From a virus, in IMG/VR virus record IMGVR_UViG_3300004154_000015, positions 1 through 51,650 of that record: DNA of 51,650 bases. One strand, written 5' to 3'. Position 1 is the first letter of the stretch; each line of letters begins with the position of its first letter. Made by a program: the position numbers and the translations under genes. The notes beneath the pieces are model-generated. The model saw nothing but the letters and a program-made list of their open reading frames with translations. It did no database searches and had not been told where the DNA came from. Positions 7,124 through 45,924 of this stretch are shown here, piece after piece.

Positions 7124-7157
7124 GTAGCCCCTTTCACCACAAAAACGGAGGAGTATC

Positions 7158-8096
7158 ATGGCCCGTGCCTATGGCGCGAACGCGCAACTATTGGGTTCTT
7201 TTGAAAGCGTCTATGGGACGCCGCCCGCCGGAAACTTTATCAAGTTCCCGTTCGTTTCTTCAAACCTTGGCTCCGAACAAGGACTGATTGCGTCCGACCT
7301 CTTGGGGCAAGGCCGTGATCCGGCGCAGCCGATCCGTGACGTGATCAAAGTCGATGGCGATGTGGTTGTGCCAGTTGACGCTCGAAACTTCGGTCACTGG
7401 CTTAAGGGATTGCTTGGCCTTCCGACAACAACGGGGGTTGGGCCTTATGTCCATACCTATCAGTCCGGCGCGGCAAGTCTGCCAAGCCTGTCTCTTGAGG
7501 TCGGGATGCCGGAGCCGTTTTCATTCATGATGAATGCGGGCGTTATGCTCAATTCTCTGCAATTGAGCTATTCACGAAGTGGCGGCGCAAGCGCGACGAT
7601 CAATTGCATCGCGCAAAGCGAAACGCGCAATCCCACGAGTCATGGCGGCACGCCAACCCAAGCGTTGCTGACACGGTTTAATCAGTTTCAAGGGGCTATC
7701 AAGAAAGACGGGGCGCAACTTGCCAACGTCACGGGTGCGCAACTAACCTACACCAACAATCTGGAGCGCATCGAAACCATCCGCTCGGACGGCAAAATCG
7801 ATGGGAGCGATCCGACGATTGCCGCCTTGACAGGTTCCATCGATGTGCGTTTTGCCGATACGACTTTGATCGACGCGGCAACCGACAACACACCTGTCGC
7901 GTTGGAGTTCAGTTATGTCATCGATGTAAACCGTTCGCTGGTTTTCACGGCGCACGAAGTCTATCTGCCCAAACCCAAGCTTCCTATCGATGGCCCCGGT
8001 GGTGTGCAGGCCAGTTTCAACTGGCAAGCGGCCAAGCCTTCCGTGGGTCAAATGATGACCGTTGTTTTGACCAATGATGTGGAGGATTACGCATGA
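7158..8096 (+). CDS. major tail tube protein, 312 aa
   Basis: Matches phage tail tube proteins of the type that begins with an alanine-rich N-terminus (MARAYGANAQLLGSFESVYGTPP) and carries a long insertion relative to lambda gpV. Strands such as SLSLEVGMP and the conserved SGGASATINCIAQSE region support this. A strong GGAGG precedes the start. It overlaps the chaperone gene by four bases. Its product polymerises around the tape measure protein. Confidence 0.85.
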   Translation: MARAYGANAQLLGSFESVYGTPPAGNFIKFPFVSSNLGSEQGLIASDLLGQGRDPAQPIRDVIKVDGDVVVPVDARNFGHWLKGLLGLPTTTGVGPYVHTYQSGAASLPSLSLEVGMPEPFSFMMNAGVMLNSLQLSYSRSGGASATINCIAQSETRNPTSHGGTPTQALLTRFNQFQGAIKKDGAQLANVTGAQLTYTNNLERIETIRSDGKIDGSDPTIAALTGSIDVRFADTTLIDAATDNTPVALEFSYVIDVNRSLVFTAHEVYLPKPKLPIDGPGGVQASFNWQAAKPSVGQMMTVVLTNDVEDYA

Positions 8097-8440: not shown

Positions 8441-8790
8441 CGGCCCGCTGTAAATGGCATTTCGGCGGCGGGCCGGATTATTGCGGCGCTTGCGCGGACG
8501 CGGAACTGCCGTGCAGCAAAGGCAAAGAAAATGCGGAAGGCGAACGCTGCCCCTATTGCACGTCCGAGCCTCAAACGATGGAAGGATGGCAAGCGTGGGA
8601 CGTGGCCTTGCGCTGCGCAGGGCAGCTTCGCATGGCGCAATTTGCCGTGATTGGTCTTGACATGGGCGCGGCCATCAAGATCGGTGAATCCCTCGGCTAT
8701 GACGCGACAGGTCTGGCCGAGCTTCTCCCCTCCTGCGAGTCAGGCATGGCCACCGCCATCAACGCAAAAGTTAATGAGGGCTTAAAGTAA
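8093..8790 (+). CDS. tail assembly chaperone GT fusion by -1 frameshift, about 232 aa
   Basis: The heptamer A AAA AAC at 8428-8434 is correctly phased with the chaperone codons (AAA, AAC), and the frame entered by slipping back one base stays open to a TGA at 8788-8790. There is no convincing start for the second frame: its only upstream ATG (8365) lies inside G without a ribosome site. This is the gpG/gpGT arrangement of lambda, with an A-rich slippery site. The T part has a cysteine cluster (CKWH, CGAC, CSKG, CPYC) suggesting a zinc-binding knuckle, then a helical C-terminus that overlaps the tape measure start by one base. Product size is calculated from the slip point. Confidence 0.8.
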
Positions 8791-11330
8791 TGGCTGAACG
8801 CAATCTCGCAATTCGCCTGTCCGTCATGGATGGCGGCAAGGTCAAGGCTGAGCTGAAAGAGATTGGGGAATCCGGCGAAAAGTCGCTCAAGAAGATCGAG
8901 CTTGCCGGAAAGCCTGCCTCTAAATCGCTTATCGCCTTGAACGCCGCCGCCAATGATGTGAAATCCGGTGCAGTCGGGTTAAGCGGACAAATCGGCCCCT
9001 TGGGTTCGGCTATGGCCGCGCTCGGCCCCGTGGGGCTTGCCGTTGGTGCGGCGCTGGGCGTGGTAACGCTTGGTTTAACGGCGAGCATTCAGGAAGCGGC
9101 TGAAGCGGAACGGTCTTACAATCGCCTTCAAGCCGTTCTACGCGCCACGGGGCATTCCTCCGGCCTGACGGCGCGGGAACTCAGCTCGTTTGCCGACGAG
9201 ATGGAAGCGACGACTCTCACCACGGCTGAAGGCGTGATGGATGCCGCATCCGTTCTGGCGACCTTCCGCTCTGTGTCCGGCGAGACGTTTACGCGCACCA
9301 TTTCTCTGGCGCAGGATTTATCATCTGTTTTTGGCAAGGATTTGAACGCTTCGGTTCTAGCGCTGGGCAAGGCGTTAGAAAATCCTGTCGATGGGCTTGG
9401 CGCACTGAAAAAGATTGGTGTCGATTTCTCGCCTGTCGAACAACAAATGCTGCAAGATATGGTCGATGTTGGAAATGCGGCGGAAGCGCAACGGATCATT
9501 CTGGACAAAGTCGCCCATTCTCTCGCTGGCACAGGGGGTGCGGAAGCGACAGGCGTGACGGGCGCGACCCATCAGCTTTCTGTCGCGTGGAAAAACATGC
9601 TGGAAGCCATTGGCGAAACCTCCGTTGTGGCTGGAGCGGCGCAAGGCTCCCTTGAGGTTCTCGCCGCGACGTTTCGTGGCATGGGAAGCCTTTTCAAAGA
9701 TGCGCCGCTTGGCGAACAATTGAGCGAGGCCAAAGCCGAACTGACCGAGGCGCAGGCGGTTCTTGAGCGCCTGTATAATTTTGATCCCAAGGGCATGATG
9801 AATATCGCGCCCCTTATCGAAGATCAGAAAGAGAAGATTTCAGAACTTCGCGCAGAAGTCGAAAAACTCACAGCGGCCTCGCAAAAAGAATCCGCTGCTA
9901 TTGCTGCCGAGAAAGCGGAAGCCCTGAAGGGACAACAAACCGCCGCGCGCGCGAGCAACGCGGAGCTTGTTTCCAACGAGCGCAGAAAATTGGATGAGGC
10001 GCTGGACAAGCTGGTGAGTGATCCCGCCGCAAAGATTGCCAAGATCAATGCCGAGCTTGAAAAAACACGGGAGCGCATGGAAAAGCTCCGGGCGCGGGAC
10101 GGCAGCGATTCAAGCGCCATTGATGGGGTTATTAAACAGGCTGAAGAAGCGGCGCGTCTGCAAATTGAGGCCATTCAAAAGCCAATCAGCGAGACCGCAC
10201 GAAAAGAATCCGAGGCCAACCAGAAAATTATTGACGATTTAAAGCGGCAGCTTCTTGGGCTTGGCAATGAACGGCAAGCCTTTATCGATCAAGCGGTCTC
10301 GCGCCTTTCGGACAAGGCGGATGCAGGCAAAGTCGGGCAGACCCGCGATCTGGCCGCAAAATTGTTCGATCAAAAGGCGTTTTCGCAAGCCGAAAAAGTC
10401 ATTGGCGATCTTGGCAAGCAAATGGACGTGCTGGGCGACAAGCGCAAAGCGTTCATTCAGGGCGAACTTGCCAAACTTCCTGAAACGGTCTCGCAAGAAC
10501 AAATCGAGCGGACAAAACAATATGCGGCGGCATTGTTTGAACGCACCGAAGCGCAGGAAAAACTCGACAGGCTGAAACAGGAAGGCAAGCAAATCACAGA
10601 AGGTGCGCGAAGCGCCGAAGAATCTTATGCCGAGCAAATTGCGCGGCTCACTGAAATGCTGAACGCGGGCGCAATCAGCCAAGACGTTTTCAATAAGGCC
10701 AAAGGCAAGGCTTACGACGAATCCCTTGCCGGACGCACGGACGCACAGGCCGGAGCGATCCGAGCCTTTCACGCCTACCAAAAGGAAGCCGAAAACACGG
10801 CGGGTGCGGTTGAGGAAGCCTTTACGGCGGCATTGAAGGCAACCGAGGACGCCATTGTGAACATGGTCACGTCCGGCGAGATTAGCCTCAACAGCCTCAA
10901 TGATCTGGCCAACAGTATTGTTGCCGACATAACCCGCATGGTGGTGCAACAATCGATCACGGGGCCTCTATCGAAATGGATGGGCAGCAGCATGGAGAGC
11001 GGCGGGTTTTTGGACAGCGTGTTCAGCTCGATCTTCCATGAAGGCGGCACAGCTGGTGAAACCGCCCCCTCTCGGCAAGTTCCGGCCTATGTGTTCGCTG
11101 GCGCGCCGCGTTACCACGGCGGTGGCATTGCAGGACTGAAGCCCAACGAAGTTCCGGCGATTCTTGAGCGCGGCGAAACCGTGACCCCCAAAAACAAGCG
11201 CGGCGCACGTTCAAGTGTGAATGTCGTCATGAACATTACAACGCAGGATGCAAACTCTTTCCGCGCCAGCCAAGGTCAGATCGCCGCCAAAGCCGCACGA
11301 GGCATCAGCCGGGCCAAGCGGAATATGTAG
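8790..11330 (+). CDS. tail tape measure protein, 846 aa
   Basis: Sets tail length and is threaded through the tube. Order of parts: basic N-terminus, hydrophobic stretch at about residues 64-95 (GQIGPLGSAMAALGPVGLAVG), a lambda-type tape measure N-terminal domain with EEMEATTLTTAEGVMDAA-like helices, a long coiled coil (about 310-640), and the C-terminal lambda-family motif containing EDAIVNMVTSGEISLNSL followed by GGIAGLKPNEVPAILERGE. The length predicts a medium tail. It follows the chaperones and ends at 11330, before the inserted RNA and moron cassette. Confidence 0.93.
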   Translation: MAERNLAIRLSVMDGGKVKAELKEIGESGEKSLKKIELAGKPASKSLIALNAAANDVKSGAVGLSGQIGPLGSAMAALGPVGLAVGAALGVVTLGLTASIQEAAEAERSYNRLQAVLRATGHSSGLTARELSSFADEMEATTLTTAEGVMDAASVLATFRSVSGETFTRTISLAQDLSSVFGKDLNASVLALGKALENPVDGLGALKKIGVDFSPVEQQMLQDMVDVGNAAEAQRIILDKVAHSLAGTGGAEATGVTGATHQLSVAWKNMLEAIGETSVVAGAAQGSLEVLAATFRGMGSLFKDAPLGEQLSEAKAELTEAQAVLERLYNFDPKGMMNIAPLIEDQKEKISELRAEVEKLTAASQKESAAIAAEKAEALKGQQTAARASNAELVSNERRKLDEALDKLVSDPAAKIAKINAELEKTRERMEKLRARDGSDSSAIDGVIKQAEEAARLQIEAIQKPISETARKESEANQKIIDDLKRQLLGLGNERQAFIDQAVSRLSDKADAGKVGQTRDLAAKLFDQKAFSQAEKVIGDLGKQMDVLGDKRKAFIQGELAKLPETVSQEQIERTKQYAAALFERTEAQEKLDRLKQEGKQITEGARSAEESYAEQIARLTEMLNAGAISQDVFNKAKGKAYDESLAGRTDAQAGAIRAFHAYQKEAENTAGAVEEAFTAALKATEDAIVNMVTSGEISLNSLNDLANSIVADITRMVVQQSITGPLSKWMGSSMESGGFLDSVFSSIFHEGGTAGETAPSRQVPAYVFAGAPRYHGGGIAGLKPNEVPAILERGETVTPKNKRGARSSVNVVMNITTQDANSFRASQGQIAAKAARGISRAKRNM

Positions 11331-11370
11331 CTTATCAAGACCTTGGAATAGTTCGTTTTTATGTTGACCC

Positions 11371-11597
11371 AAGAAGGACTTACCTTCATTCTGGGCGCAT
11401 GAAGGCAAGTTTCATACGCTTGCCTTCTGAGGATTCAAACCTCCGTGAGCGGTATGACATCATCCGTTAAGGATGTCGCCTTTCGGCTATGACGCCGGGG
11501 GGCGATACTGTATGTCCAAGCCGTAAGGCTAAAGAGTATCGCACCGATCTCACGTCGGTTTGAACCTCCGGCGACCAGCGGAATTTGCCGCTGGTCG
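11371..11597 (+). ncRNA. candidate structured RNA between tape measure and small genes
   Basis: No gene fits 11331-11624, but the plus strand folds into a chain of helices. GAAGG (11373), CCTTCAT (11383), ATGAAGGCAAG (11399) and CTTGCCTTC (11419) can pair as 1:2, 2:3 or 3:4 (5, 7 and 9 bp), an attenuator-like set. Then come GAGG/CCTC (11429/11440), GACATC/GATGTC (11456/11472), GCC/GGC around TTTC (11478), an 8-bp helix GCGATACT/AGTATCGC (11502/11535) enclosing an AGCC-GTAA-GGCT hairpin with a GNRA loop, ACCGA/TCGGT (11543/11555), and a perfect 10-bp hairpin (11572-11597). ACCTCCG occurs twice (11439 and 11564 areas). It could be a regulatory leader for the following genes or a free RNA; I recognise no family. 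Confidence 0.55.
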
Positions 11598-11624
11598 ATA
11601 AAATCAAACCGAAGGGAAACACCG

Positions 11625-11789
11625 ATGAACGACATCTCCACTTGGCAACTTTGTTCGGACTTTTTGAAAGCCTATTTGGGCGATCCGATCATATTGACGC
11701 TTTTACTTCTCCTGATTATGGGCGTAGGCGTGAGCCTGCGCTTTAAGAAAATCGAAAAGAAACTGCTGCCAAATCGTAAGGCACCATAA
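11625..11789 (+). CDS. small single-pass membrane protein, 54 aa
   Basis: The ATG at 11625 follows GAAGGGAAAC (good spacing) right after the structured region. The protein has a short N-terminal part, one strongly hydrophobic segment (about residues 23-39, ILTLLLLLIMGVGVSL) and a basic tail (RFKKIEKKLLPNRKAP), implying N-out/C-in insertion. Unknown function. Its place with two other non-structural genes inside the tail operon marks it as part of a moron cassette. A holin-like or superinfection-exclusion role is possible, but there is no direct evidence. Confidence 0.65.
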   Translation: MNDISTWQLCSDFLKAYLGDPIILTLLLLLIMGVGVSLRFKKIEKKLLPNRKAP

Positions 11790-11832
11790 CTGAACGAACA
11801 TATTTGTTTTTTTTAAAAGAGGAGTGCAAAAT

Positions 11833-12048
11833 ATGCGCTTGAATTTTCTTGATGCTGATGTTTCTGCCCCTTGTCAACGCATGTCGCTTGCTATCGCAAG
11901 CATTATTCGAGCAAAAGGTTCCTGCCGACGAAGCGACCTACAGGATAATAATTTTTCGGCAGAAGAGATTCGCTCTTGCTGGAACATTGCATACGGGCTT
12001 GCTCATGTTGAATTAATGGGAAGCCGTAATGATATAGTTTTTCATTGA
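11833..12048 (+). CDS. small helical protein, paralogue of genes at 32885 and 34401, 71 aa
   Basis: AGAGGAG eight bases upstream supports the ATG at 11833. The sequence carries the pattern CQRM..AI.SI...KGSC...DL....FS.EEI...W..A..LA..EL, shared with the products at 32885-33157 and 34401-34637. I know similar alphaproteobacterial proteins as short, uncharacterised helical units with a 'T..DL...GFT..EI' core that may form a small HTH-like bundle. Why one copy sits in the tail operon while the others lie in the Xre-Nudix operon 21 kb away is not obvious; a shared partner is plausible. Confidence 0.65.
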   Translation: MRLNFLDADVSAPCQRMSLAIASIIRAKGSCRRSDLQDNNFSAEEIRSCWNIAYGLAHVELMGSRNDIVFH

Positions 12049-12170
12049 GTTCCTTTGAAAAGGCACGCCAAAAGGAACTGTTGCCTTCATAGTCCCGCAT
12101 GGTCTTATATGAGGGCAACAACAAAGAGAGCGGGTCGTGTCCTCGCGGCCACGCTCTTTCTTTGAAAGAG
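12049..12170 (+). promoter_or_regulatory. multi-hairpin leader of the hemerythrin gene
   Basis: Three successive stems: GTTCCTTT/AAAGGAAC (12049/12071), a 12-bp stem with one G-U pair (12080-12091 with 12108-12119), and AGAGCGGGTCG (12127-12137) pairing with CGGCC-A-CGCTCT (12146-12157), followed by TTTCTTT, which looks like an intrinsic terminator. CTCTTTC (12154-12160) can instead pair with GAAAGAG (12164-12170), which includes the ribosome site of the next gene. The overlap of the two pairings suggests a switch between termination and blocked translation, but this is inferred by hand folding. Confidence 0.5.
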
Positions 12171-12178
12171 AGTTTGAT

Positions 12179-12589
12179 ATGTCCTTGATCCACTGGAACA
12201 ACGATTTGAGCGTCGGCATCCCCTCTATCGATGCGCAGCACAAAAAGCTCTTGGATTTACTCAACGAGCTGCACGGTGCGACCTATCAGGGAAAAGGACA
12301 GGAGGTCGTTGGCAACACGTTGGCCGGACTTATCAGCTACACGGTTGAACATTTTCAGTATGAAGAGAAGCTGTTCAAAGAAACAGGCTATCCCGAAGCG
12401 GAAGCACACGCAGCCGAGCATGTTATCCTGACCAAGAAAGTCATGGACATTCACGAGAAATTCAAAAGCGGCATCACAACAGCGTTGACGCAAGAAGTCC
12501 TCCTGTTCTTGGTCAATTGGCTTATGGACCACACGATGGACAGCGACAAAAAATACAGCGCGCATTTAATCGCCGCTGGGGTTCAATAG
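12179..12589 (+). CDS. bacteriohemerythrin, 136 aa
   Basis: An oxygen-binding four-helix protein with a di-iron site. All expected ligands are present: His21 (in IDAQHKKL), His58 and Glu62 (HFQYEE), His77, His81 (AHAAEH), His118 and Asp123 (HTMDSD). The length is that of single-domain bacteriohemerythrins. The start at 12179 follows GAAAGAGAG. The family stores or senses O2 and is common in microaerophilic proteobacteria. It is not a phage structural gene; lying between the tape measure and DUF2460 genes, it is probably a lysogenic-conversion gene that helps the host under changing oxygen. Confidence 0.93.
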   Translation: MSLIHWNNDLSVGIPSIDAQHKKLLDLLNELHGATYQGKGQEVVGNTLAGLISYTVEHFQYEEKLFKETGYPEAEAHAAEHVILTKKVMDIHEKFKSGITTALTQEVLLFLVNWLMDHTMDSDKKYSAHLIAAGVQ

Positions 12590-12612
12590 CCCCCTATATC
12601 CAAGGATAAACC

Positions 12613-22897: not shown

Positions 22898-25800
22898 TTA
22901 CATAAAATCAAGATTATCCCAAGAACCGCGCCGTCTTCTGTGTCCCCCTCTGAGGATAGGCTCATATTCAGAAAAGGACGAAGGAAAGATAGGCATAAAG
23001 AAACACATCGACGAACCGCCGCCACCCGCGCTGCCGCCCGAACCTACGCTCATGCTCGTAACTTGGGCGGCTGCTATTGTAAAATCCTCTCTTTTCTCTT
23101 CTTGCTTCGTTTCAGAAGAAGCAGAAGCCGAGGATGTTTCAACTTCAGCGGTAGATCTGGAACTATCGTCAACAGTTTGCTGCACGGCCTGTTGAACGGC
23201 AGGCTCTTCCTCCTGGTCTGATGATTTGCCCGCATTCTGCGATCCGGAAGGTGCTTCCTCCTCATCAGCCTGACTCTCAACCGTTTCGAGAACTTCGTTC
23301 TTGTCAGAAGATACGGGGGGATCGCCTTGCGTCGCAAGTTCGGCGGATTCCTCTTGAGAACTTTGCCCCATTGCCATGTTATCTTCCAATTGTACGGCAG
23401 CATCAGTGCCTTCTTCATAACCTGCATCAGCGGCCAAGTTTGTCTGCTTATCCCCAGAAAGAGCCTGATCTGCGACGTTGTTTTCTTGGGCTTCCTCAAC
23501 TGTCGTCACAGAAGCGTTTTGTCCAACCGTATCGGATAAATTAGCTGTTTCATCCGCTTGCTCAACCGCGTCCGTAGCTTGGGCCATTTCCGCTGTTTGT
23601 TGTTGAATGTTATCTTCCGAGGCTACATGTTCTGCTGTTTCATTCCCATCGAGCGCGGGTTCGGTTTGGGCAGCATCGGTGGCCGAATGGGCAATCTCCG
23701 CCTTTAATTCTGCGATTTCGGCTTGATGGCTTTCGTAGGTTCTTTCATAAGTCGCCGCCTCATTAGGGGACAGCTCTTCCATTCCATCTTTCAGAAGCTG
23801 GGAGGAGTATTCCAGTTGCTCAAGCTTTTTTTCTGCGGCGGTCTTCTCGGTGTTCTCGTCCAAAGCAAAAAAATCTGCTTTATCTTGAAGCGAAGATTCG
23901 TTTTGCTCAGCTTGAGCCACATCCTCTGTGGCAGCGATTTCCTGAACATCGTTTTGAAGCGCTTTCTCGGCTTCAGTTCCTTCCGCTGTGGCAAGAGCGG
24001 CTTCTTCCACCAACTGAGGCTTCTCGCTCGTTTGTTCCGTTTGGCTTGCCGTGATTTCCTTCGCGGCAGCAACCTCTTCAGTATCCAAATTTTGAGCCGT
24101 TGCATCTTCGGCAAGTGCGGCTTTTTCTTCTTCCGTCAGTTGGGCTTCCTCGTTCGCCTGTTCTGCCTGTTTGGCCGTAAGCTCCTGCGCGGCAGCTTTT
24201 TCCTCCGCCTCAATGGTTTCGGGCGTTGCCTCTTCTGTAAGTTCGGCTCTTGCTTTTTGAGCTTCCGCCGCTTTTTCTTCAGCAACGGCTTCGGCCTGCT
24301 GGGCTTCTTCCGTTTTTAGCGCGGCATCCTCTTTGGCCTCTACCGCTTCTTCGGCCTTTTGTTTGGCAACCTCTTTGGCCTCTTTAGCTTCCTCGGCCTT
24401 TTGGTCAGCCTCAGCTCTAGCTTCTTCTGCTTCTGTCGTTTTCTGTTTTGCTTCCTCTTGCGCCTGCAGAAACTCTTTGGTTTCTTGCTCTTCTTCAGTC
24501 GCCTGTTTGACGACTTCTTCCGCCTTTTGGGCTTCTTCCTCTTTTTCTAGGGCAATCTCCTCAGCCTTTTCCGCTTCCTTGGCTTTCTGTTGCGCTATTT
24601 CTTCGGCCTCAAGGGCTTCTTCTTCCTTCTTCTCCGCAAGCGCTTCGGCTTTTTGCGCCTCTTGCGATTTTTGCTGCGATTCCTGTTCCGCTAGTTCGGC
24701 CACTTCTTCCTTTTGCTGGACGGCTTCTTCGGCTTTTTTAGCTTCCTCGGCCTGTTGCGCTTCTTCTTGGGCGCGTTGTTCCTCAAGCGCCTTTTGTTCT
24801 TCTTCCTGACGGCGGGCTTCTTCCTCTTTGAGGGCTGCTTCAGCCGCAAGCGCAGCGGCTTCGGCCTGCTGTTGTTCAGGCAAAATGGTTTCGACGATCT
24901 CTTGGGCCGCTTCGGCCTCGGCGGCGGTGCGGGCGATCTCCGCATTTAATTCCGCAATCTCAGCTTGATTCTTCTCGCAAACCCTTTCGTTAACCGCCGC
25001 CTCGTTAGGGGGCAGGTCTTCCATTTGGTCTTTCAAGAGCTGGGTGGAATATTCCAATCGCTCAATTCTCTCCGCCGCAGCCGCCGCTGTTTGCTCGGCA
25101 ATCTGTGCCTTTTCATCGGCAAGAGCTTGGGCTTGCTCCAGTTCGGTTGTCTTCTGATCCGCCAAGGCGCGGGCTTCAGCGGCTTCTTGGTTTAGAACCT
25201 CTAATCTGTTTTCAGCTTCTTGTTGTTTTTCTAAAGCGTGCTTTTCTTTTTCTAATCTTACAGCTTCTTTTGCCTCCTCAACTAGTTCATGTATTTTTTT
25301 GTTGGCATCAGGTGTCCCTATCTCAAGTGCTGCTCCTTCGAGATGCGCCTCAAGTATCCTTTTCTTGCTAGATTCGTCTAAACACACGTCTTGATCTACA
25401 ATATCTGCACCAACCTGATGCAGATAGTTGCTGACCACACCATTTATTTCGAGTTCTTTCTCCTGTTCCGGCGTGAATTGTGGGGCAGGGTATCCATTCT
25501 TTTCAGCGTCCTCATTTGCTGCACGTTCAATTTCTTGAGTTTTCTCGTAGATATAGTGAGTCATCTTGCCGTACTCCACCATATCTTCTTGCTCAAATCT
25601 AAACTCAGCAACGTGGCCGTTGCTGAGCCGGATCGTCATATTTACATCACGAAAGCCACTTTCGGTTGGGGTGGCAAAACGGTCTTTCAAGCTTGTGACA
25701 TCATATTCGTCGGACATTTTTTGGGCATAGTCGCGGACGATTTGAACTTCCTCTAACGGACCAACAATTATTCTGCCGCGGATGATGTCAGTTATACGAG

Positions 25801-26020
25801 AACAAACCCCCTCGTAGTCTCCTTCAACCTTTTCTATGATGCGATTTTCGGCTTTCTCATTTATTTCTACAGTTGCGCTGTTAAAAAGATCTGGGTGAGC
25901 CTCCTTAAGATCTGAAAAGATGTTATGCACAACTTCTTGAAACTCAGGAAGAGCTTCCTTTCCTTGAGCAATTAATTCTTGCAGGCTAAAATTGGGGTTC
26001 TGCTTATAATAGTCCGCCAT
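22898..26020 (-). CDS. RelA/SpoT-like domain protein with long Glu/Ala-rich coiled coil, 1040 aa
   Basis: N-terminal residues about 40-170 match the RelA/SpoT nucleotidyltransferase fold of the small-synthetase or toxin type: ITDIIRGRIIV with Asp78, Arg81 and Arg83; LKDRFATPTESGFRDVNMTI (111-130); NGHVAEFRFEQ with Glu139; and THYIYEK. Residues about 230-620 form a very long TolA-like helix of E/A/K/Q heptads. An about 55-residue block is duplicated (repeat entries). The tail is Gly-rich and ends in an Arg cluster (RGGHRRRRGSW). GAGGA precedes the start. It is the last gene of the VirD4-ATPase module. Possible roles are alarmone synthesis or pyrophosphate transfer to RNA, linked to a membrane machine; activity is unproven. 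Confidence 0.7.
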   Translation of the reverse strand: MADYYKQNPNFSLQELIAQGKEALPEFQEVVHNIFSDLKEAHPDLFNSATVEINEKAENRIIEKVEGDYEGVCSRITDIIRGRIIVGPLEEVQIVRDYAQKMSDEYDVTSLKDRFATPTESGFRDVNMTIRLSNGHVAEFRFEQEDMVEYGKMTHYIYEKTQEIERAANEDAEKNGYPAPQFTPEQEKELEINGVVSNYLHQVGADIVDQDVCLDESSKKRILEAHLEGAALEIGTPDANKKIHELVEEAKEAVRLEKEKHALEKQQEAENRLEVLNQEAAEARALADQKTTELEQAQALADEKAQIAEQTAAAAAERIERLEYSTQLLKDQMEDLPPNEAAVNERVCEKNQAEIAELNAEIARTAAEAEAAQEIVETILPEQQQAEAAALAAEAALKEEEARRQEEEQKALEEQRAQEEAQQAEEAKKAEEAVQQKEEVAELAEQESQQKSQEAQKAEALAEKKEEEALEAEEIAQQKAKEAEKAEEIALEKEEEAQKAEEVVKQATEEEQETKEFLQAQEEAKQKTTEAEEARAEADQKAEEAKEAKEVAKQKAEEAVEAKEDAALKTEEAQQAEAVAEEKAAEAQKARAELTEEATPETIEAEEKAAAQELTAKQAEQANEEAQLTEEEKAALAEDATAQNLDTEEVAAAKEITASQTEQTSEKPQLVEEAALATAEGTEAEKALQNDVQEIAATEDVAQAEQNESSLQDKADFFALDENTEKTAAEKKLEQLEYSSQLLKDGMEELSPNEAATYERTYESHQAEIAELKAEIAHSATDAAQTEPALDGNETAEHVASEDNIQQQTAEMAQATDAVEQADETANLSDTVGQNASVTTVEEAQENNVADQALSGDKQTNLAADAGYEEGTDAAVQLEDNMAMGQSSQEESAELATQGDPPVSSDKNEVLETVESQADEEEAPSGSQNAGKSSDQEEEPAVQQAVQQTVDDSSRSTAEVETSSASASSETKQEEKREDFTIAAAQVTSMSVGSGGSAGGGGSSMCFFMPIFPSSFSEYEPILRGGHRRRRGSWDNLDFM
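23690..23840 (-). repeat. copy 1 of internal duplication in the 1040-aa gene
   Basis: Encodes LEQLEYSSQLLKDGMEEL followed by SPNEAATYERTYESHQAEI and AELKAEI, matching about 55 residues encoded at 24936-25080. The two copies differ at scattered positions, so the duplication is old enough to have diverged or came from a related gene. Boundaries are approximate. Confidence 0.75.
24936..25080 (-). repeat. copy 2 of internal duplication in the 1040-aa gene
   Basis: Encodes RIERLEYSTQLLKDQMEDL followed by PPNEAAVNERVCEKNQAEI and AELNAEI, the partner of 23690-23840. In the protein this copy is nearer the RelA/SpoT-like domain; the coiled coil between the copies spans about 370 residues. Confidence 0.75.
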
Positions 26021-27314: not shown

Positions 27315-30300
27315 TCACTTCGGCGGCGCGATTGCTTTTAGCTCAGGGCGCTGCCTTGGCAGTTTTGGCGGAACCAGCGGCCCGCGTATTCTTAGTCTTT
27401 CGCTTTGCGCGTCGAAAGCGCGTTCCATGTCCTCCATGTCCCTGATCGCACGGGCGTGGGCCCGATGGTGCGCGGCGGCGCGGGCCTCGTCCAAACGTCT
27501 AGCAAAGCCCTCGAAGCTTACCTGCGCTTCGTTGAGGCGCATGACCTGTCCGTTGAACTGCCTTATCTTGCCGATGGTACCCATCACGTTCTGCTGACCT
27601 TCACGGATCTGCTTGCGCAAAAGCTGATGATAGGAGTCTTCATCCTCACGAAGACCCGTGACGTATCCCCGGACAAGGCCGTCGAACTTTTCGAGGTGTG
27701 GGTCTTTCACCGACTCCAGCGCGGCATCCATCAGCATAACGTCTTTGCGATCACGCCGCTTTTTGGAAGGTGCCAGTTCGGCACGACGCGACACGGCGTC
27801 GCCAACCGTCTTGATGTCGTCCGGCAGATCATATCCGGTCAAGGGCGTGTCAAAATAGGCCTCCAGCTCCTTGCGCGTTTCCACGCCCTTTTCAGGGAGA
27901 ACGGCAAGTTCTTGCGAGACTTCTGGGGCCAACACCTCGGCCTCGAACATCTCCGGCATCGGAGCCGTGCGACTTGTTAAAGCGCGTGGTGGTGGCGGGC
28001 CAAGTTTGGTGGGCGTGACCAAAGGGGGCTGGACAAGATAATCGCCTCTGTCGAAGTCAAAGAACTTCTCGCGGACTCTCCCATATTTGCGCAATTTGTT
28101 GGCGTAGCGCACCCAATCCCCCGAAGACCAGCCACTTACGGCACCGCTTCGGATTTCTCCAAATAACTCACGGCTGGTTGCTAGATTGGCGCGGTGCTCT
28201 TCCAACAGTTCCGTCAATACCTCATGACTGTTAGCCAGAGCGGACTCCATCTTCCCGTTTCCGGTAACGAGTTCATGCTGCCGCTCGACGGTTTCGTTTA
28301 TATACTCCTTGGTGGCATCGTGAGCTTCCATGACGGGATCAAGTTGATCCCTGACCATCTTCATGGCCGCACCGCGCATGTCCGTGTAGTCCTTCCAGCA
28401 AACAAACTTCTCGCGTACCAGTTTGTATCGCTGCCATGAGGCGGCGGCTATGCCCGTCAACATCAACGCGCCAAACGTGATTCCGGCAGCCATAATTGAA
28501 CCGCCGACATAGCAAGTCGTAGCGACTCCGGCTGCGGTCGCGGCCTTGACGTATGGACTGCGGAAGAAACTGTTAAAGAAGCCGGGCTTTTCATTGAACT
28601 TGTCCAGCCGATACCGCGCTCCGAGATACCTTTCGCAGGTCTCTTTAACGCCTTGCCCCCATTCGGAAAGCTTCGCGGGAGCCGTCCACGCGACAGGATT
28701 CTTAGGCACCCAATTCAGCTTGCTTTCGTCCAAATTGAACCCCTCCAGATCAACGGGCGGCATCGGCTTCAGCCGTACAACCGTCTTCTTGGGCGGATCG
28801 GGGAAAGCAGGAGCTTCAGGTATAGGCGGGCCTTCCGCACGCTCCCTCAAAAACGGTATTTCATAGTATCGCGCCTGCTGGTCCAAAGTGCAATGGCTCT
28901 GCTTCCTGCCGCTGATAAAAAGGATCTGTTTTTCACCGGAAAAACAATCTTCTATCTGACGGGCATCCATTCCATCTATGACAATGGGCTGATAAGACAG
29001 GTTATAATTCGTGCTCCAACTCTCGTTGTTGTTGCGCCCCTTTTGCGTGGTTTCGCTTTCAGCGGTGCCTCCCCCCTTGGAATCGGTCTTGCCGGACTGG
29101 GTTGACTCACCTTGCGTGTCAGCCGTGCCGTGGGAGGTCGATGTCGAGCCACCCGATCCGGAACTTGATCCACCGGGACCGGACATGCTGCTCCAAAAGT
29201 TAGAAAGCGTTGTTACGATGGAGTTCGTTTTTTGGGCCGTCCTTCCGACAGAGTTTGAGACCGCGACTTGCCAAGTATTTTGGTCAACCGTTCCCTTGGC
29301 GACAGACTCTTGCTCCCCAACGCCGAGTTGGATTCCCTGTCCTTCGCTCACGGTCGGCACATAGACCATGTAGCGGCCAAGACGCTTGCTGATATATTCA
29401 ATCGATTTGGGTTCGTGACTGCGAAGAAACTGGACGACTTCCGAAGACCCAAGAAAAGCGGCGGCTCGTTCTTCGCCGTAAACATCCCTCAGACTTGCGT
29501 AGTCCTGAAACAAGCTCCAAAAGATGATGCCTTTTTGGCGTACCGTTTGAGCGCCCGTCGCAATGGCCTGAAGATGCCCCAGTTGCGTTAACTCATCGAT
29601 CATGAACAGGATGCGGTCTTCCTTCTTAAAGTCTTTTCCTCCATTGCCCGGATTAGGCGTGCCATCAATTGCGCTTTGCAAAATAAGACGAAGCCACGGC
29701 TGATAATTGATATACTCGTCAACGTTCGGCATGACGATGTAGATCGTCGTTTTTTTGCCACGCAGGTCCATCATGGAGAAGTCCGAGGAAACCATGTGCT
29801 GACCAAGACAATCATCAGCCATCCATTTGTCTAACCATTGGGAAGTCGCCGTGACGACGGAGCGCACGTTCTGGTCTCCGGGTTGGGCCGTGCTAAGATA
29901 ATTTCCGAACTTATTCAGCAATCTTTGATGCGGGCCGCGCCACCCTGTTAGCTCTGCAATGTGTTTGTCCCACGCTTCCGACGGAAACTCGCTGAAGATT
30001 TTTGCCATATAAACAAAATTCTTGTGCTCATAGGGTATTGTGTCTGCCAGCTTCAGATAGACGATCATCGCCGCAATAAGACCGCTCGGATTTTCCCTAA
30101 AATAGGGATTTTGCTCCTTATGTCCCTGCGAATCTGATATGAGAGCAGATGACATTGTTAGAATGCGGCTATAAAAATCAGGCTCCTTTGGATCTAGATC
30201 GTCCATAGGATTGTAGTTGCTTGATCCCAATCCGATGATGTTCTGGGGATCAAAAATATAAATATCCTGCCCAAGAGTCCATTTGCGATGATTGTAAGTC

Positions 30301-30647
30301 CTCTTGAACGTAGCCCCGCCGATCTCAAGGGAAACAACGGAGCCTGCATAGGATAAAAGGTTAGACGTTGCCGAAGCGGCGGTCTTTCCCGATCCTGTAT
30401 TGCCTATGACGTTCCCGTGCGTTTCAACATCCTGATAAATAGGCACGCCATTATACGCGCCGACAATGAGACCATGGGGATCAGCAAGACAATCCGATCC
30501 ATTGTCCATGACGTTCTGGACGGAAATGAGTGCCTTGTTGTCGGCATGGTATTGAACGGGGGCTATATTGAAAGGCCGTTCAATTGCCCTGTCCAACTTC
30601 GTGAGGACTTGGAGTTCCTCTTTTTTCTTTTCCAAAACTGGGAGCAT
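27315..30647 (-). CDS. VirD4/TraD-like type IV coupling ATPase with C-terminal membrane and helical region, 1110 aa
   Basis: Walker A is GNTGSGKT at residues 82-89 and Walker B is ILFMIDE at 346-352, followed by LTQLGHLQAIATGAQTVRQKG and the sensor-like SLFQDYASLRDVYGE, typical of VirD4/TraG coupling proteins. A Ser/Gly linker (about 488-535) leads to a second conserved block ending at about 605. Unlike normal coupling proteins there is no N-terminal membrane anchor; instead hydrophobic segments lie at about 700-738, then a long coiled region to the C-terminus. AAGGAGGA precedes the start. No relaxase or VirB4 is nearby, so DNA transfer by itself is doubtful; it may move a protein substrate, or work in defence. 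Confidence 0.85.
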   Translation of the reverse strand: MLPVLEKKKEELQVLTKLDRAIERPFNIAPVQYHADNKALISVQNVMDNGSDCLADPHGLIVGAYNGVPIYQDVETHGNVIGNTGSGKTAASATSNLLSYAGSVVSLEIGGATFKRTYNHRKWTLGQDIYIFDPQNIIGLGSSNYNPMDDLDPKEPDFYSRILTMSSALISDSQGHKEQNPYFRENPSGLIAAMIVYLKLADTIPYEHKNFVYMAKIFSEFPSEAWDKHIAELTGWRGPHQRLLNKFGNYLSTAQPGDQNVRSVVTATSQWLDKWMADDCLGQHMVSSDFSMMDLRGKKTTIYIVMPNVDEYINYQPWLRLILQSAIDGTPNPGNGGKDFKKEDRILFMIDELTQLGHLQAIATGAQTVRQKGIIFWSLFQDYASLRDVYGEERAAAFLGSSEVVQFLRSHEPKSIEYISKRLGRYMVYVPTVSEGQGIQLGVGEQESVAKGTVDQNTWQVAVSNSVGRTAQKTNSIVTTLSNFWSSMSGPGGSSSGSGGSTSTSHGTADTQGESTQSGKTDSKGGGTAESETTQKGRNNNESWSTNYNLSYQPIVIDGMDARQIEDCFSGEKQILFISGRKQSHCTLDQQARYYEIPFLRERAEGPPIPEAPAFPDPPKKTVVRLKPMPPVDLEGFNLDESKLNWVPKNPVAWTAPAKLSEWGQGVKETCERYLGARYRLDKFNEKPGFFNSFFRSPYVKAATAAGVATTCYVGGSIMAAGITFGALMLTGIAAASWQRYKLVREKFVCWKDYTDMRGAAMKMVRDQLDPVMEAHDATKEYINETVERQHELVTGNGKMESALANSHEVLTELLEEHRANLATSRELFGEIRSGAVSGWSSGDWVRYANKLRKYGRVREKFFDFDRGDYLVQPPLVTPTKLGPPPPRALTSRTAPMPEMFEAEVLAPEVSQELAVLPEKGVETRKELEAYFDTPLTGYDLPDDIKTVGDAVSRRAELAPSKKRRDRKDVMLMDAALESVKDPHLEKFDGLVRGYVTGLREDEDSYHQLLRKQIREGQQNVMGTIGKIRQFNGQVMRLNEAQVSFEGFARRLDEARAAAHHRAHARAIRDMEDMERAFDAQSERLRIRGPLVPPKLPRQRPELKAIAPPK

Positions 30648-30662: not shown

Positions 30663-32081
30663 TTACGGTGCAGGCGTGTTGTTAGGCTTGTTGCCAGAGG
30701 CAGCGTCTTTTCGTCTTTGAGCCAAGCTCACAACCGTCCCCATTAGGCCTGATTGATTTTTGTCATCCTCCTCAAATCTTTCACGGCGAGGATGAACGGC
30801 GTCTTTCACCATTTGTGCTCCCGTTTGTATGGCCGTCCCCATATTTTCTCCGGAGAAAAGAGTATCGATTTCGCACAAACGAGTTTTGACTTCCTGCGCG
30901 ACGGGATTCTTTTTGCAGGCATTCGTCATGGCATCACGATAGCGGTGAACCATGTCGCCGACCGCGACTCTGGCGGCAGCTTCGCCACGCGAGGATTCCA
31001 GATCATGAACGAACAGTTCTTTAACCCGACGCTGCGCCGTTTCTTTCCGCCCTTTTCGGAAAGTCGAAGCTGCGTGCGCAATGACCGTCGCAACAACCAA
31101 CTGAGAGGCAATGAGCCAAGCCCCCAGATAACCCGCTCCAAGTATCTGCCCCCACCATGTGGCGGGGCTTTCCGCATCTGTCTTCTTCTTGTTTGATGTC
31201 AGACTCGCTGCTGTTGCTTTGGCTTCGCCAAGAAGTTTTTCATCTTCGGGAATGGTCACGTTTATCAATTGTCGACCCTGTTCGTCGTTGCCTGTGTAGC
31301 CGTCGCCCAAGATGGGTTTTCCACCGATGCCGCCGTGATCAAGCGTGTCCCTGTCTCTTGCGAGTTTCTCGGTGAAGTGAATGGCTTGCGCCTCTGCCTT
31401 GGCCAAGCTCTCGTCAGCCGTATAGGATTGTGAGCGCAAACTCTGCGGTAACATGTTTGCAAAATGACCTTTGAAGTTCGGATTGTCCGCCGCGAGCATT
31501 GAAGCGCCGATACTTGCAGTAACCAGCAATCCTCCGAGAAACACTCGAAATCCTTTATGCTCGGACAAGCCAATGCCCGCCGCGAAAACGAGAGAGCCTC
31601 CCGCAAGAGCCGTAAACCACGGGTTGTTTTGCATAAGGCCATTTGCGGCACCACCGAAGATCGCGACGTCAATAGCGCCGCCAGCGATCAGGGCCACGAC
31701 AGGAACCGTGCAGGTCAACAGACGGCTTCCCATCATATGCGCGCCGAGCTGCCACCAGCGTGCGCCGACTTCCGCCTTCGCCGCCCGGTATTGCGCCAAA
31801 ACGGCTGAACCAGCCATATGTCCCAAACCTTCTGGAGATAATTTTCCTCCCTCGCGTTCGATGCGATATGCTTGGTCAATGGTCTCGGCAGGCTTGGATG
31901 GGCCATCGAAATCCGGCTTTTCGACTGTATTGAGCGTGCGTTCAGCAAAAGTGTGCTCCGCCTCCGGCGGCATCACCCCCGTTTCGTTTTCAGAGGCGGC
32001 TTTGCTTTCCGCTTTTTCCTGCTTTTTCCCCTGATCTTGTTCTTTATCTTTTTCCTGAACTATTGCTTCGCCTTCGCTCAT
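30663..32081 (-). CDS. multi-pass membrane protein of the coupling-ATPase module, 472 aa
   Basis: A charged N-terminus (first about 110 residues, KDKEQDQGKKQEKAESK-rich) is followed by four likely TM segments (about 124-146, 154-170, 175-194 and near 330-352), with a soluble, coiled stretch between and a basic C-terminus ending in NNTPAP. GGAGCTAAAA supports the start. The ATPase gene follows after 15 bases. It may be the membrane platform that replaces the missing TM anchor of the ATPase. I do not recognise a named family. Confidence 0.75.
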   Translation of the reverse strand: MSEGEAIVQEKDKEQDQGKKQEKAESKAASENETGVMPPEAEHTFAERTLNTVEKPDFDGPSKPAETIDQAYRIEREGGKLSPEGLGHMAGSAVLAQYRAAKAEVGARWWQLGAHMMGSRLLTCTVPVVALIAGGAIDVAIFGGAANGLMQNNPWFTALAGGSLVFAAGIGLSEHKGFRVFLGGLLVTASIGASMLAADNPNFKGHFANMLPQSLRSQSYTADESLAKAEAQAIHFTEKLARDRDTLDHGGIGGKPILGDGYTGNDEQGRQLINVTIPEDEKLLGEAKATAASLTSNKKKTDAESPATWWGQILGAGYLGAWLIASQLVVATVIAHAASTFRKGRKETAQRRVKELFVHDLESSRGEAAARVAVGDMVHRYRDAMTNACKKNPVAQEVKTRLCEIDTLFSGENMGTAIQTGAQMVKDAVHPRRERFEEDDKNQSGLMGTVVSLAQRRKDAASGNKPNNTPAP

Positions 32082-43798: not shown

Positions 43799-44425
43799 AT
43801 GGACACGAAACTCCCACGCATGGCGGAGCGGATTGAGTTTTGGCCCACAACAAAACTTCTGCCTTACGAAAAGAATCCGCGCCTTCACAGCGACGAGCAA
43901 ATCAGCCAGATCGCCGCGAGCTTTATCCGCTTTGGCATGGTGATGCCAATTCTTGTCGATAGCACGGCGGGCGTGATTGCTGGGCACGGGCGGCTTGAAG
44001 CAGCCAAGCTCGTGGGTCTCAAGAAAGTTCCCGTTGTCATTCTCGATGGGTTGAGCGAGGAAGAAAAAAGCGCCTACGTCATCGCCGACAACAAGCTGGC
44101 CGAGAATGCGACATGGGATAAGGAACTTTTGGGCGAGCATGTCGAAGTCCTTATGGCCAAGGATTTTGATATGGGCGTTATCGGTTTTTCTAAAGACGAA
44201 ATTGAGCGGCTTTTAAACGAAGCTCAAGACGATTTAAGCGACGGGTTCGACGGTGGAGAAGCCAACGAACATCAAGAAGAGTCCGACACGCAATGTGTGG
44301 TTGGCTCCTACCGTCTCCCCATCTCCCGCGATGATTATCTGCGCTGGCACGATTCCATTCGCGACGCCGTTGGTTTTGAGAAAGATGCCATCAAAAAAGA
44401 AATTCGGAGGCGGTTGAAGCTATGA
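43799..44425 (+). CDS. ParB-like N-terminal domain protein, 208 aa
   Basis: The ParB/sulfiredoxin-type fold, here with FWPTTKLLPYEKNPRLHSDEQ, ASFIRFGMVMPILVD, VIAGHGRLEAAKLVGLKKVPVV and YVIADNKLAENATWD, matches the phage ParB-like family that precedes terminases in many phages. CTP-binding and nuclease activities have been shown for various members. I choose the ATG at 43799. It overlaps the next gene by four bases. Confidence 0.85.
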   Translation: MDTKLPRMAERIEFWPTTKLLPYEKNPRLHSDEQISQIAASFIRFGMVMPILVDSTAGVIAGHGRLEAAKLVGLKKVPVVILDGLSEEEKSAYVIADNKLAENATWDKELLGEHVEVLMAKDFDMGVIGFSKDEIERLLNEAQDDLSDGFDGGEANEHQEESDTQCVVGSYRLPISRDDYLRWHDSIRDAVGFEKDAIKKEIRRRLKL

Positions 44426-45924
44426 TCGAACTCGTTCCGATTACCGACGTGCGCCCCAGCACCTACAATCCCCGCAAGTCTGATCCCATTCGCCTCAAGA
44501 TTATCGAACTATCCCTTCGCAAACTGGGCTGGCTTCTCCCCATTTATGCCGACAAAGACGGCGAAATCCTTTCCGGCCATCAACGGCACCTTGTCGCGAC
44601 GCGCATGGGCATGAAGGAAGTGCCTGTCTGTTACATCCCGCGCATGACACTGGAAGAGCGTAAAGCCATTAACGTTGCGTTCAATCGCGGTACCAACGAC
44701 ATGCAAAACTCGGATGCGCCTGACACGCTGAAGCAGGCGCTTGAGCAGTGCAACGTTTTTGACATCGCCGCCGAGCTGCCCGATCAAACGGATGGCTGCC
44801 CTTGTTTGAATGTCGAGAAAGTTCCCCTCGCGCCGCTCTTAAAAGCCAACAAGGGCCGTTGGGTTCCGTATGCCCGTAACCTCGCGCAAATGCTTCGCAA
44901 GCGAGGCATTCAAATGCCGATCATTGCGACCCGCGATCACAAAATCATCAACGGCATCGGGCGGCTGGAACTGGCGGCGGATCGCGGTGAAAGCCACGTC
45001 TCGGTGGTTTGGATTACGGACACGCAGGCCGAACTAGCACAAGCCATGTTGAACTTTCTCAGCATGGATTTCGACATCCACACCCGTTATGCCGACTTGC
45101 TCCGTTACAATTCTTTCCGGCGCGTCCGACGTGTGCGCTCCGAATTAGGCTGGGGTTTCATCTTTGCCCATTACAAGAAAACCGCTGTCAAAGAATATGA
45201 CGTGACCGAGCCGAAGAACGCCGAACACTGGAAGCGGCTTTATGGGACTTCGGTGGTGGATTTTGGTGCAGGGCATTTGACTGAAACAAAAATCCTGCGG
45301 TCCATCGGTGTGCGCGTATCAGCCTTTGAGCCTTTTCGTATCGGTGACACGGATGAAATCGACAAGGCAGAGAGCCTGCGCGTCGCGCGCGCCTTTCTGG
45401 CGGACGTTGCGGCGGGCGTGAAATACGACTCTGTTTTTATCTCCTCGGTTCTCAATAGCGTCCCCTTCCGCGAAGACCGCGAACATATCGCCTGCCTGTG
45501 CGCCGCGCTTTGCTGCCCTAGGACGCGGCTTTATGCAGCAGCTTCCTCGCGGGCGCATTCCAACTGGCGCAACGTCGCTGGCGGCAATCAAATCTCCGAA
45601 CGTCGCCTCAAAGAATGTATATTTCGGCTGGAATATGAAGGCGGGATCACGTTGGGTGACTTTCAAGCCAAGCCGAAGGTTCAGAAGTATCATTCGCAGA
45701 AAGAGTTTTACGAACTCTTCAGTCCGTTCTTTGAGCGTGTGCAAGTCGAAGACAAAGCCAACAACGTCACAGCAATTTGCGGTAATCCGTTGCCCGTTGA
45801 CGCGAAGAAACTAAAAGCAGCTATCGCTTTTGAGTTTGATTTACCGTATCCTGATGGCAGCCGCATGGGGTTGGTTGACGAAGCCGTCGCTGCCTATGAA
45901 AAGCGGTTAGGCATGACGTTATGA
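44422..45924 (+). CDS. double ParB-like plus SAM-binding domain protein, 500 aa
   Basis: Two ParB-like parts: about 1-80 (DVRPSTYNPRKSDPIRLKIIELSLRKLG, ILSGHQRHLVATRMG) and about 140-210 (KGRWVPYARNLAQMLRKRG, IINGIGRLELAADRG). A methyltransferase-like domain starts near 275 with motif I VVDFGAGHL and an SAF-EP acidic loop. No target-base motif (NPPY or PCQ) is seen. It overlaps ParB and HAD-like genes by four bases each. DNA modification or a template-guided role in packaging is possible. Confidence 0.7.
   Translation: MIELVPITDVRPSTYNPRKSDPIRLKIIELSLRKLGWLLPIYADKDGEILSGHQRHLVATRMGMKEVPVCYIPRMTLEERKAINVAFNRGTNDMQNSDAPDTLKQALEQCNVFDIAAELPDQTDGCPCLNVEKVPLAPLLKANKGRWVPYARNLAQMLRKRGIQMPIIATRDHKIINGIGRLELAADRGESHVSVVWITDTQAELAQAMLNFLSMDFDIHTRYADLLRYNSFRRVRRVRSELGWGFIFAHYKKTAVKEYDVTEPKNAEHWKRLYGTSVVDFGAGHLTETKILRSIGVRVSAFEPFRIGDTDEIDKAESLRVARAFLADVAAGVKYDSVFISSVLNSVPFREDREHIACLCAALCCPRTRLYAAASSRAHSNWRNVAGGNQISERRLKECIFRLEYEGGITLGDFQAKPKVQKYHSQKEFYELFSPFFERVQVEDKANNVTAICGNPLPVDAKKLKAAIAFEFDLPYPDGSRMGLVDEAVAAYEKRLGMTL

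Follow-up and report, generated by a model that had tools for sequence, protein, structure and literature searches.

A predicted C4-type antisense RNA in the leader of a cargo operon inserted behind the tape-measure gene of a phage contig

What is encoded between the tape-measure gene (8790–11330) and a small open reading frame (ORF) of a 51,650-nt viral contig, where hairpins crowd positions 11371–11597? The contig, IMG/VR record IMGVR_UViG_3300004154_000015, was analysed over its full length and is called the window here. A sequence-only reading had described the segment as an unassigned structured RNA, either a regulatory leader or a trans-acting RNA. In our view, 11371–11597 is likely to serve as leader to an inserted cargo operon and to specify a C4-type antisense RNA that represses this operon. 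The best reading of the sequence comparisons is an alphaproteobacterial C4-type branch that Rfam does not recognise, used on phage cargo rather than on an antirepressor.

In phage P1, the c4 antisense RNA silences an antirepressor. It is a separate RNA cut from the transcript, with a 5′ end made by RNase P, and it acts in trans under a polarity model. The phage P1 record annotates a1, b1, c4, a2, b2, icd, and ant; in the folded c4, the P3 loop holds b′, and a′ follows P3. C4-type RNAs are both an operon leader and an antisense RNA cut out of that leader, so both halves of the earlier alternative would apply to an RNA of this type.

The tape-measure gene matches Pfam Tape_meas_lam_C. The closest related phage (L003) has a tape measure with 66% identity, and its DUF2460 ATG lies 3 bases after the tape-measure stop with nothing between. 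Since the two genes adjoin there, the intervening 1.28 kb (approximately) of the window is an insertion, and the RNA element opens it. A contig with an identical tape measure (L002) gives the same RNA match. The insertion contains the following features.

11331–12612, + strand: inserted cargo segment (moron) between the tape-measure and DUF2460 genes, absent from L003
11625–11789, + strand: 54-aa predicted single-pass membrane protein, start codon ATG 11625, presumed first target
11833–12048, + strand: 71-aa protein, no family assigned
12179–12589, + strand: hemerythrin-domain protein (cargo; Pfam PF01814, E = 8.1e-13)

The 54-aa protein matched no Pfam or PHROG family, and no antirepressor family was found among the 54-aa, 71-aa, and hemerythrin genes. 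L003 carries a different insert with a nuclease-like ORF at 7148–7699, one gene further on, between DUF2460 and a baseplate gene. Elsewhere in the window, 27315–30647 (− strand) encodes a conjugative coupling protein of the TraG/VirD4 type (PF02534, E = 1.5e-45), and the contig also has genes for phage tail proteins and terminase. Large unassigned ORFs lie beside it (22898–26020 and 30663–32081), and 44422–45924 gives a weak ParB_N match. The window is perhaps a phage-plasmid with transfer genes. A tRNA-like match at 51594–51650 (− strand) is cut by the contig end and is possibly the edge of an integration site.

The predicted RNA fold of 11371–11597 has an energy of −104.9 kcal/mol against −71.4 ± 4.6 for 200 shuffles (z = −7.2, no shuffle equal), and every stem named in the sequence-only reading is present. 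The complement is equally foldable (z = −8.3); folding alone therefore does not give the strand, and the + strand was taken from homologues. No long frame accounts for the segment, in keeping with the earlier view that coding does not explain it; a 12-codon ORF is contained in the leader. The leader elements and the 3′ hairpin are as follows.

11364–11392, + strand: candidate promoter-like pair TTGACC(11364)-17-CATTCT(11387)
11373–11387, + strand: inverted repeat GAAGG-ACTTA-CCTTC in the promoter-like spacer, operator-like (speculative)
11401–11427, + strand: leader hairpin H0 (GAAGGCAAG / CTTGCCTTC), 9 bp, predicted fold
11454–11492, + strand: 12-codon ORF MTSSVKDVAFRL, whose stop ends just before helix P1; may be chance
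about 11572–11597, + strand: P4 hairpin between core and start codon, from the fold (11574–11595 outside the P1 3′ strand)

The promoter-like pair is weak and is absent from the list of a stand-alone consensus scan. As a group, 58 homologous loci score 9.07 for such pairs against 8.05 ± 0.12 in shuffles. GAAGG starts at 11373 and 11401 and CCTTC at 11383 and 11423; the first of each form the inverted repeat and the second of each hairpin H0. A role of this repeat (GAAGGACTTACCTTC) as a repeated operator was rejected on its single copy in the 51,650-nt window. A variable hairpin also occupies the H0 position in other family members, and the homologues inspected also have a hairpin 3′ of helix P1. 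P4 is the perfect 10-bp hairpin singled out before.

Rfam at gathering thresholds matched no family in 11371–11597. In a relaxed search, sRNA-Xcc1 (RF02221) stood out with a full-length match of 33.6 bits (E = 2.5e-4), short of its gathering score of 53. The C4 model (RF01695), which finds phage P1 c4 at 68.8 bits, left the window unmatched up to E = 10. The c4-2 model (RF02944), likened to C4 by its name, left it unmatched in both the gathering and the relaxed search. DNA similarity of a 301-bp stretch to phage and plasmid collections gave no match. The window's P2-loop pattern occurs at 34 places in 85,000 species genomes, mostly alphaproteobacterial and mostly foldable into the same junction. 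Model R1 was built from 27 of these matches, window included, and was used to gather 77 sequences from other loci for model R2, from which the window was left out. R2 matched the window at 11492–11574 with 73.1 bits (E = 2e-13), its sole match in 51,650 bases. This held-out score places the element in the alphaproteobacterial C4-type family described by R1, R2, and the P2 loop GYAUGUCCAAGNCGNAAGNCUAAAG. On these model scores, it is a distant sister of RF02221 and a non-member by Rfam's rule. As a C4/sRNA-Xcc1-type RNA, it is no longer unassigned. Two further patterns were discarded: the helix P1 3′ strand pattern gave almost only chance matches in viral contigs, and the first core pattern matched a microvirus by chance.

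Covariation is strong across all helices of the 77-sequence alignment (0.823 against 0.209 ± 0.010 in shuffles, 98.1% of pair cells kept), which was fitted to the structure and so leans towards it; the unfitted first alignment gives 0.607 against 0.191 ± 0.017. Homologues thus change with compensation, and the free variation that the sequence-only reading had named as its refuting test was not seen. Hairpins clustered by chance, an integron attC site, or an operator array lacking RNA function would fit the equal foldability of the complement, and PMC12444791 places sRNA-Xcc1 in integron cassettes. The held-out R2 match and the 77-sequence covariation refute this explanation, whose probability we regard as negligible. 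The attC reading was judged by eye alone, and self-splicing intron and tRNA-like readings of the segment drew no support from Rfam and RNA searches.

The core comprises three helices around a junction.

11492–11574, + strand: C4-type three-way-junction core (held-out model R2, covariation, RF02221 at 33.6 bits)
11493–11501/11565–11573, + strand: helix P1
11502–11509/11535–11542, + strand: helix P2, with conserved inner loop GUAUGUCCAA..UAAAG and GNRA cap
11544–11558, + strand: helix P3

Helix P2 (8 bp) encloses GCC-GUAA-GGC at 11520–11529 and is the GNRA-capped hairpin in an 8-bp helix that had been noticed earlier. As in the C4 RNAs of phages P1 and P7 (RF01695), the order is a1-b1-core-a2, helices P1, P2, and P3 form a junction, b′ sits in the P3 loop with a′ between P3 and helix P1, and a small ORF follows. 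The window differs from those systems in that an antirepressor follows C4 there and none does here, and in that b2 was not found. Phage P1 c4 also has a short UUCG hairpin where the window P2 has the conserved AUGUCCAAG..CUAAAG inner loop and GNRA cap. The closest Rfam model, sRNA-Xcc1, shares the junction, the P2 inner loop with GNRA cap, a′ and b′, the P4 hairpin, and the address pairings; its inner loop reads AAUACAAYACCCGNAAGGGGAAUA, unlike that of the window branch.

The address sequences and their target sites are as follows.

11549–11554, + strand: b′ (CTCACG), apical loop of P3; pairs with b1 and is homologous to covarying b′ loops
11555–11563, + strand: a′ (TCGGTTTGA), P3 3′ side and junction J3/1; 9 bp with a2, 8 bp with a1
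11434–11441, + strand: site a1 (TTCAAACC), between GAGG (11429–11432) and CCTC (11440–11443) arms; complementary to a′
11444–11449, + strand: site b1 (CGTGAG), then CGG; complementary to the b′ loop
11604–11612, + strand: site a2 (TCAAACCGA), overlapping the start of Shine-Dalgarno GAAGGG (11611–11616); 9 bp with a′

The upstream sites of the window stand in the C4 order, a1 before b1. Such an ordered pair arose in 6 of 6000 shuffles, in none of 6000 with CGG after it, and in none of 100 leaders from other loci. CGG follows b1 in 58 loci, window included, and likewise in phage P1, where the same scoring, run as a positive control, returned the annotated a1, b1, a2, and b2. A leader model (R3, 29 relatives) fails to recognise the window's leader, so the a1-b1 assignment rests on complementarity and the CGG mark. 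Downstream, the 9-bp a′:a2 score was reached in 22 of 3000 shuffles, a′ was matched equally well by 2 of 100 unrelated downstream stretches, and the pairing ends in the Shine-Dalgarno of the 54-aa gene. At the start of that gene a2 stands alone, and no b2 matching the b′ loop was found there. In the RNAs of Haemophilus phage Aaphi23 and Acinetobacter phage 4316, which have ant/KilA-N leaders, b′ and b2 are fully complementary. The 12-codon ORF fills the gap between b1 and helix P1, and b1 would be its ribosome-binding region.

Pairing scores from 101 alpha-family loci were compared with those obtained when partners were swapped between loci. They were 18.91 against 13.34 ± 0.22 for b′-b1, 17.0 against 12.71 ± 0.24 for a′-a1, 15.3 against 13.04 ± 0.22 for b′-b2, and 14.12 against 12.63 ± 0.22 for a′-a2. 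The b2 and a2 signals are weaker across the family because just part of the loci have these sites. By this comparison, b′ in the P3 loop and a′ in J3/1 are address sequences: they covary with upstream a1-b1 and, for some family members, with a2-b2 at the ribosome-binding site (RBS) of the gene that follows. Two earlier observations change meaning here. The four GAAGG/CCTTC segments proposed to pair alternatively are present, and the key alternatives are instead those of a′/b′ with a1/b1 or with a2. ACCTCCG does occur twice, because a1 and the a′/helix P1 3′ strand (11555–11573, TCGGTTTGAACCTCCGGCG) both precede TCCG; it is mainly helix P1 3′ strand rather than an anti-Shine-Dalgarno core, and the two segments also pair together.

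A leader that binds a ligand, such as a riboswitch, and has no part in antisense control would explain the strong conservation of the P2 inner loop and a position upstream of start codons. We hold it to be very improbable, since the variable parts are covarying addresses that change from locus to locus in the swapped-partner tests, the downstream genes have no common pathway, and no Rfam riboswitch family matches.

So far, sRNA-Xcc1 has been treated as a trans sRNA linked to virulence and directed at plant or host targets, and target searches for it and for the Xylella sXF RNAs were aimed at plant and host mRNAs. Its consensus finds phage homologues, and in the inspected records the RNA lies shortly upstream, on the same strand, of an antirepressor, KilA-N, Bro-N, or unnamed gene. 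A pattern scan of viral contigs yielded 90 distinct copies, and the 71 with a clear start codon were used for downstream pairing. In these 71 loci, the P3 loop is complementary to the RBS (18.3 against 12.6 ± 0.3 swapped) and J3/1 (a′) to a2 just before it (15.1 against 12.3 ± 0.3 swapped). Upstream pairings in the viral loci score 19.55 against 16.17 ± 0.27 for b1 and 18.41 against 15.82 ± 0.30 for a1, again with swapped controls. Among 62 proteins encoded downstream, the leading Pfam families are KilA-N, P22_AR_C, Rha, AntA, Bro-N, and ORF6N. The proposal that sRNA-Xcc1 is a C4-type RNA targeting its neighbouring gene is well supported by this covariation. RF01695 gives no match on the sRNA-Xcc1 loci scanned, so the two are, by model, separate families with one architecture. 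PMC12444791 treats sRNA-Xcc1 as a trans-acting sRNA carried by integrons, often with symE. No prior statement of sRNA-Xcc1 as C4-like was found in the accessible portions of the open literature naming it, and an earlier one may exist elsewhere.

Model R1 finds about 100 copies in 50 of 385 sampled alphaproteobacterial genomes (~13%), a nearly identical set being drawn by two class searches. In these 385 genomes, scores above the cut-off come from 7 genomes for RF02221 and from none for c4-2. On 15 loci of the branch, Rfam at E 0.5 gave just weak RF02221 matches for the window-type element. Cargo behind the RNA in bacterial genomes is mixed and includes outer-membrane barrels, glycosyltransferases, HTH proteins, Rha, ORF6N, and restriction and other defence-like proteins. 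Ten further phage contigs of the window's type mostly show both b1 and b2 by eye, and their next or second gene is usually an antirepressor (ORF6N, AntA, Rha, Bro-N).

Some genes directly behind alphaproteobacterial copies match defence models (type II restriction enzyme, PtuB, RmrA, PDC-S11), and these sequence matches suggest antisense-gated defence cargo at some copies. At several Rhizobiales-like loci (L241, L244, L251–L253), the next-gene RBS GGGGAGTTG is complementary to the helix P1 3′ strand CAACTCCCC instead of b′. We also weighed whether 24B_1 of phage Phi24B is a piece of a C4-type RNA and rejected this, as 24B_1 is located between lom and vb_24B_43, away from d_ant. The Group 1 sRNAs of Acinetobacter baumannii were assigned to C4 by Rfam search and belong to another lineage than the window.

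We infer the following course for the window operon. Transcription would start near 11400. In the nascent RNA, a1-b1 would pair with a′-b′, or the core at 11492–11574 would fold alone. The predicted minimum of the whole leader has the first pairing and the core without the leader folds as the junction; the leader could therefore keep the RNA inactive before cleavage frees it. The core is probably cut from the transcript, as phage P1 c4 is, and would then act in trans. Its a′ would pair with a2 by the Shine-Dalgarno and lower translation of the 54-aa gene; through polarity, the 71-aa and hemerythrin genes would be translated less as well. Specificity for this operon and for related incoming phages would lie in the address pair.

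The core might instead stay in the mRNA of a purely cis-acting leader, in which a′-a2 (in relatives also b′-b2) hides the RBS, a1-b1 competes, and transcription progress or a bound factor decides translation. A stretch of about 230 nt on one presumed transcript does contain all the sites, the same predicted folds with and without the leader would serve such a switch, and the conserved P2 inner loop AUGUCCAAG..CUAAAG, which holds no address sequence, could bind a factor. Phage P1 c4, in contrast, is a separate RNA. sRNA-Xcc1 is a discrete 88-nt RNA in Xanthomonas campestris by Northern blots and RACE (PMC2996969), and the Acinetobacter baumannii Group 1 C4-like RNAs, with many copies per genome and variable a′, appear processed from longer transcripts (PMC5320573). 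A cis-acting leader is a real possibility that we do not favour.

We think it unlikely that the RNA confers immunity by acting in trans on a main target elsewhere, be it a host mRNA or another phage or prophage of this type, with the downstream genes as passengers. The 54-aa gene start does lack b2, many alphaproteobacterial copies have a1-b1 without a clear b2, and seven copies with differing P3 loops occur in one sampled genome (G022; loci L272, L311, L317, L319–L322). This explanation is opposed by the a′:a2 match at the Shine-Dalgarno and by a2-b2 scores above swapped controls family-wide. A C4-type antisense RNA directed at its own cargo operon remains the preferred reading.

With these comparisons, the family that Rfam carries simply as 'sRNA' (RF02221) gains a named function open to testing, and about 13% of the sampled alphaproteobacterial genomes have a sister family that mostly escapes the Rfam models. 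Sequence predicts which gene each RNA controls and through which few bases. If this is true, target searches for sRNA-Xcc1 and Xylella sXF should begin with the adjacent gene. Evenly balanced, in our judgement, is the broader proposal that mobile DNA uses C4-type RNAs generally, as a regulatory cassette that can be given new addresses. A single RNA frame would carry two swappable addresses co-inherited with a1-b1 and a2-b2, uncoupled from antirepressors and serving cargo as varied as morons, surface proteins, and genes for restriction or other defence; one genome could have several copies with different addresses. sRNA-Xcc1 would be included, with its neighbouring gene as primary target. In the window, C4 logic would be seen on phage cargo other than an antirepressor.
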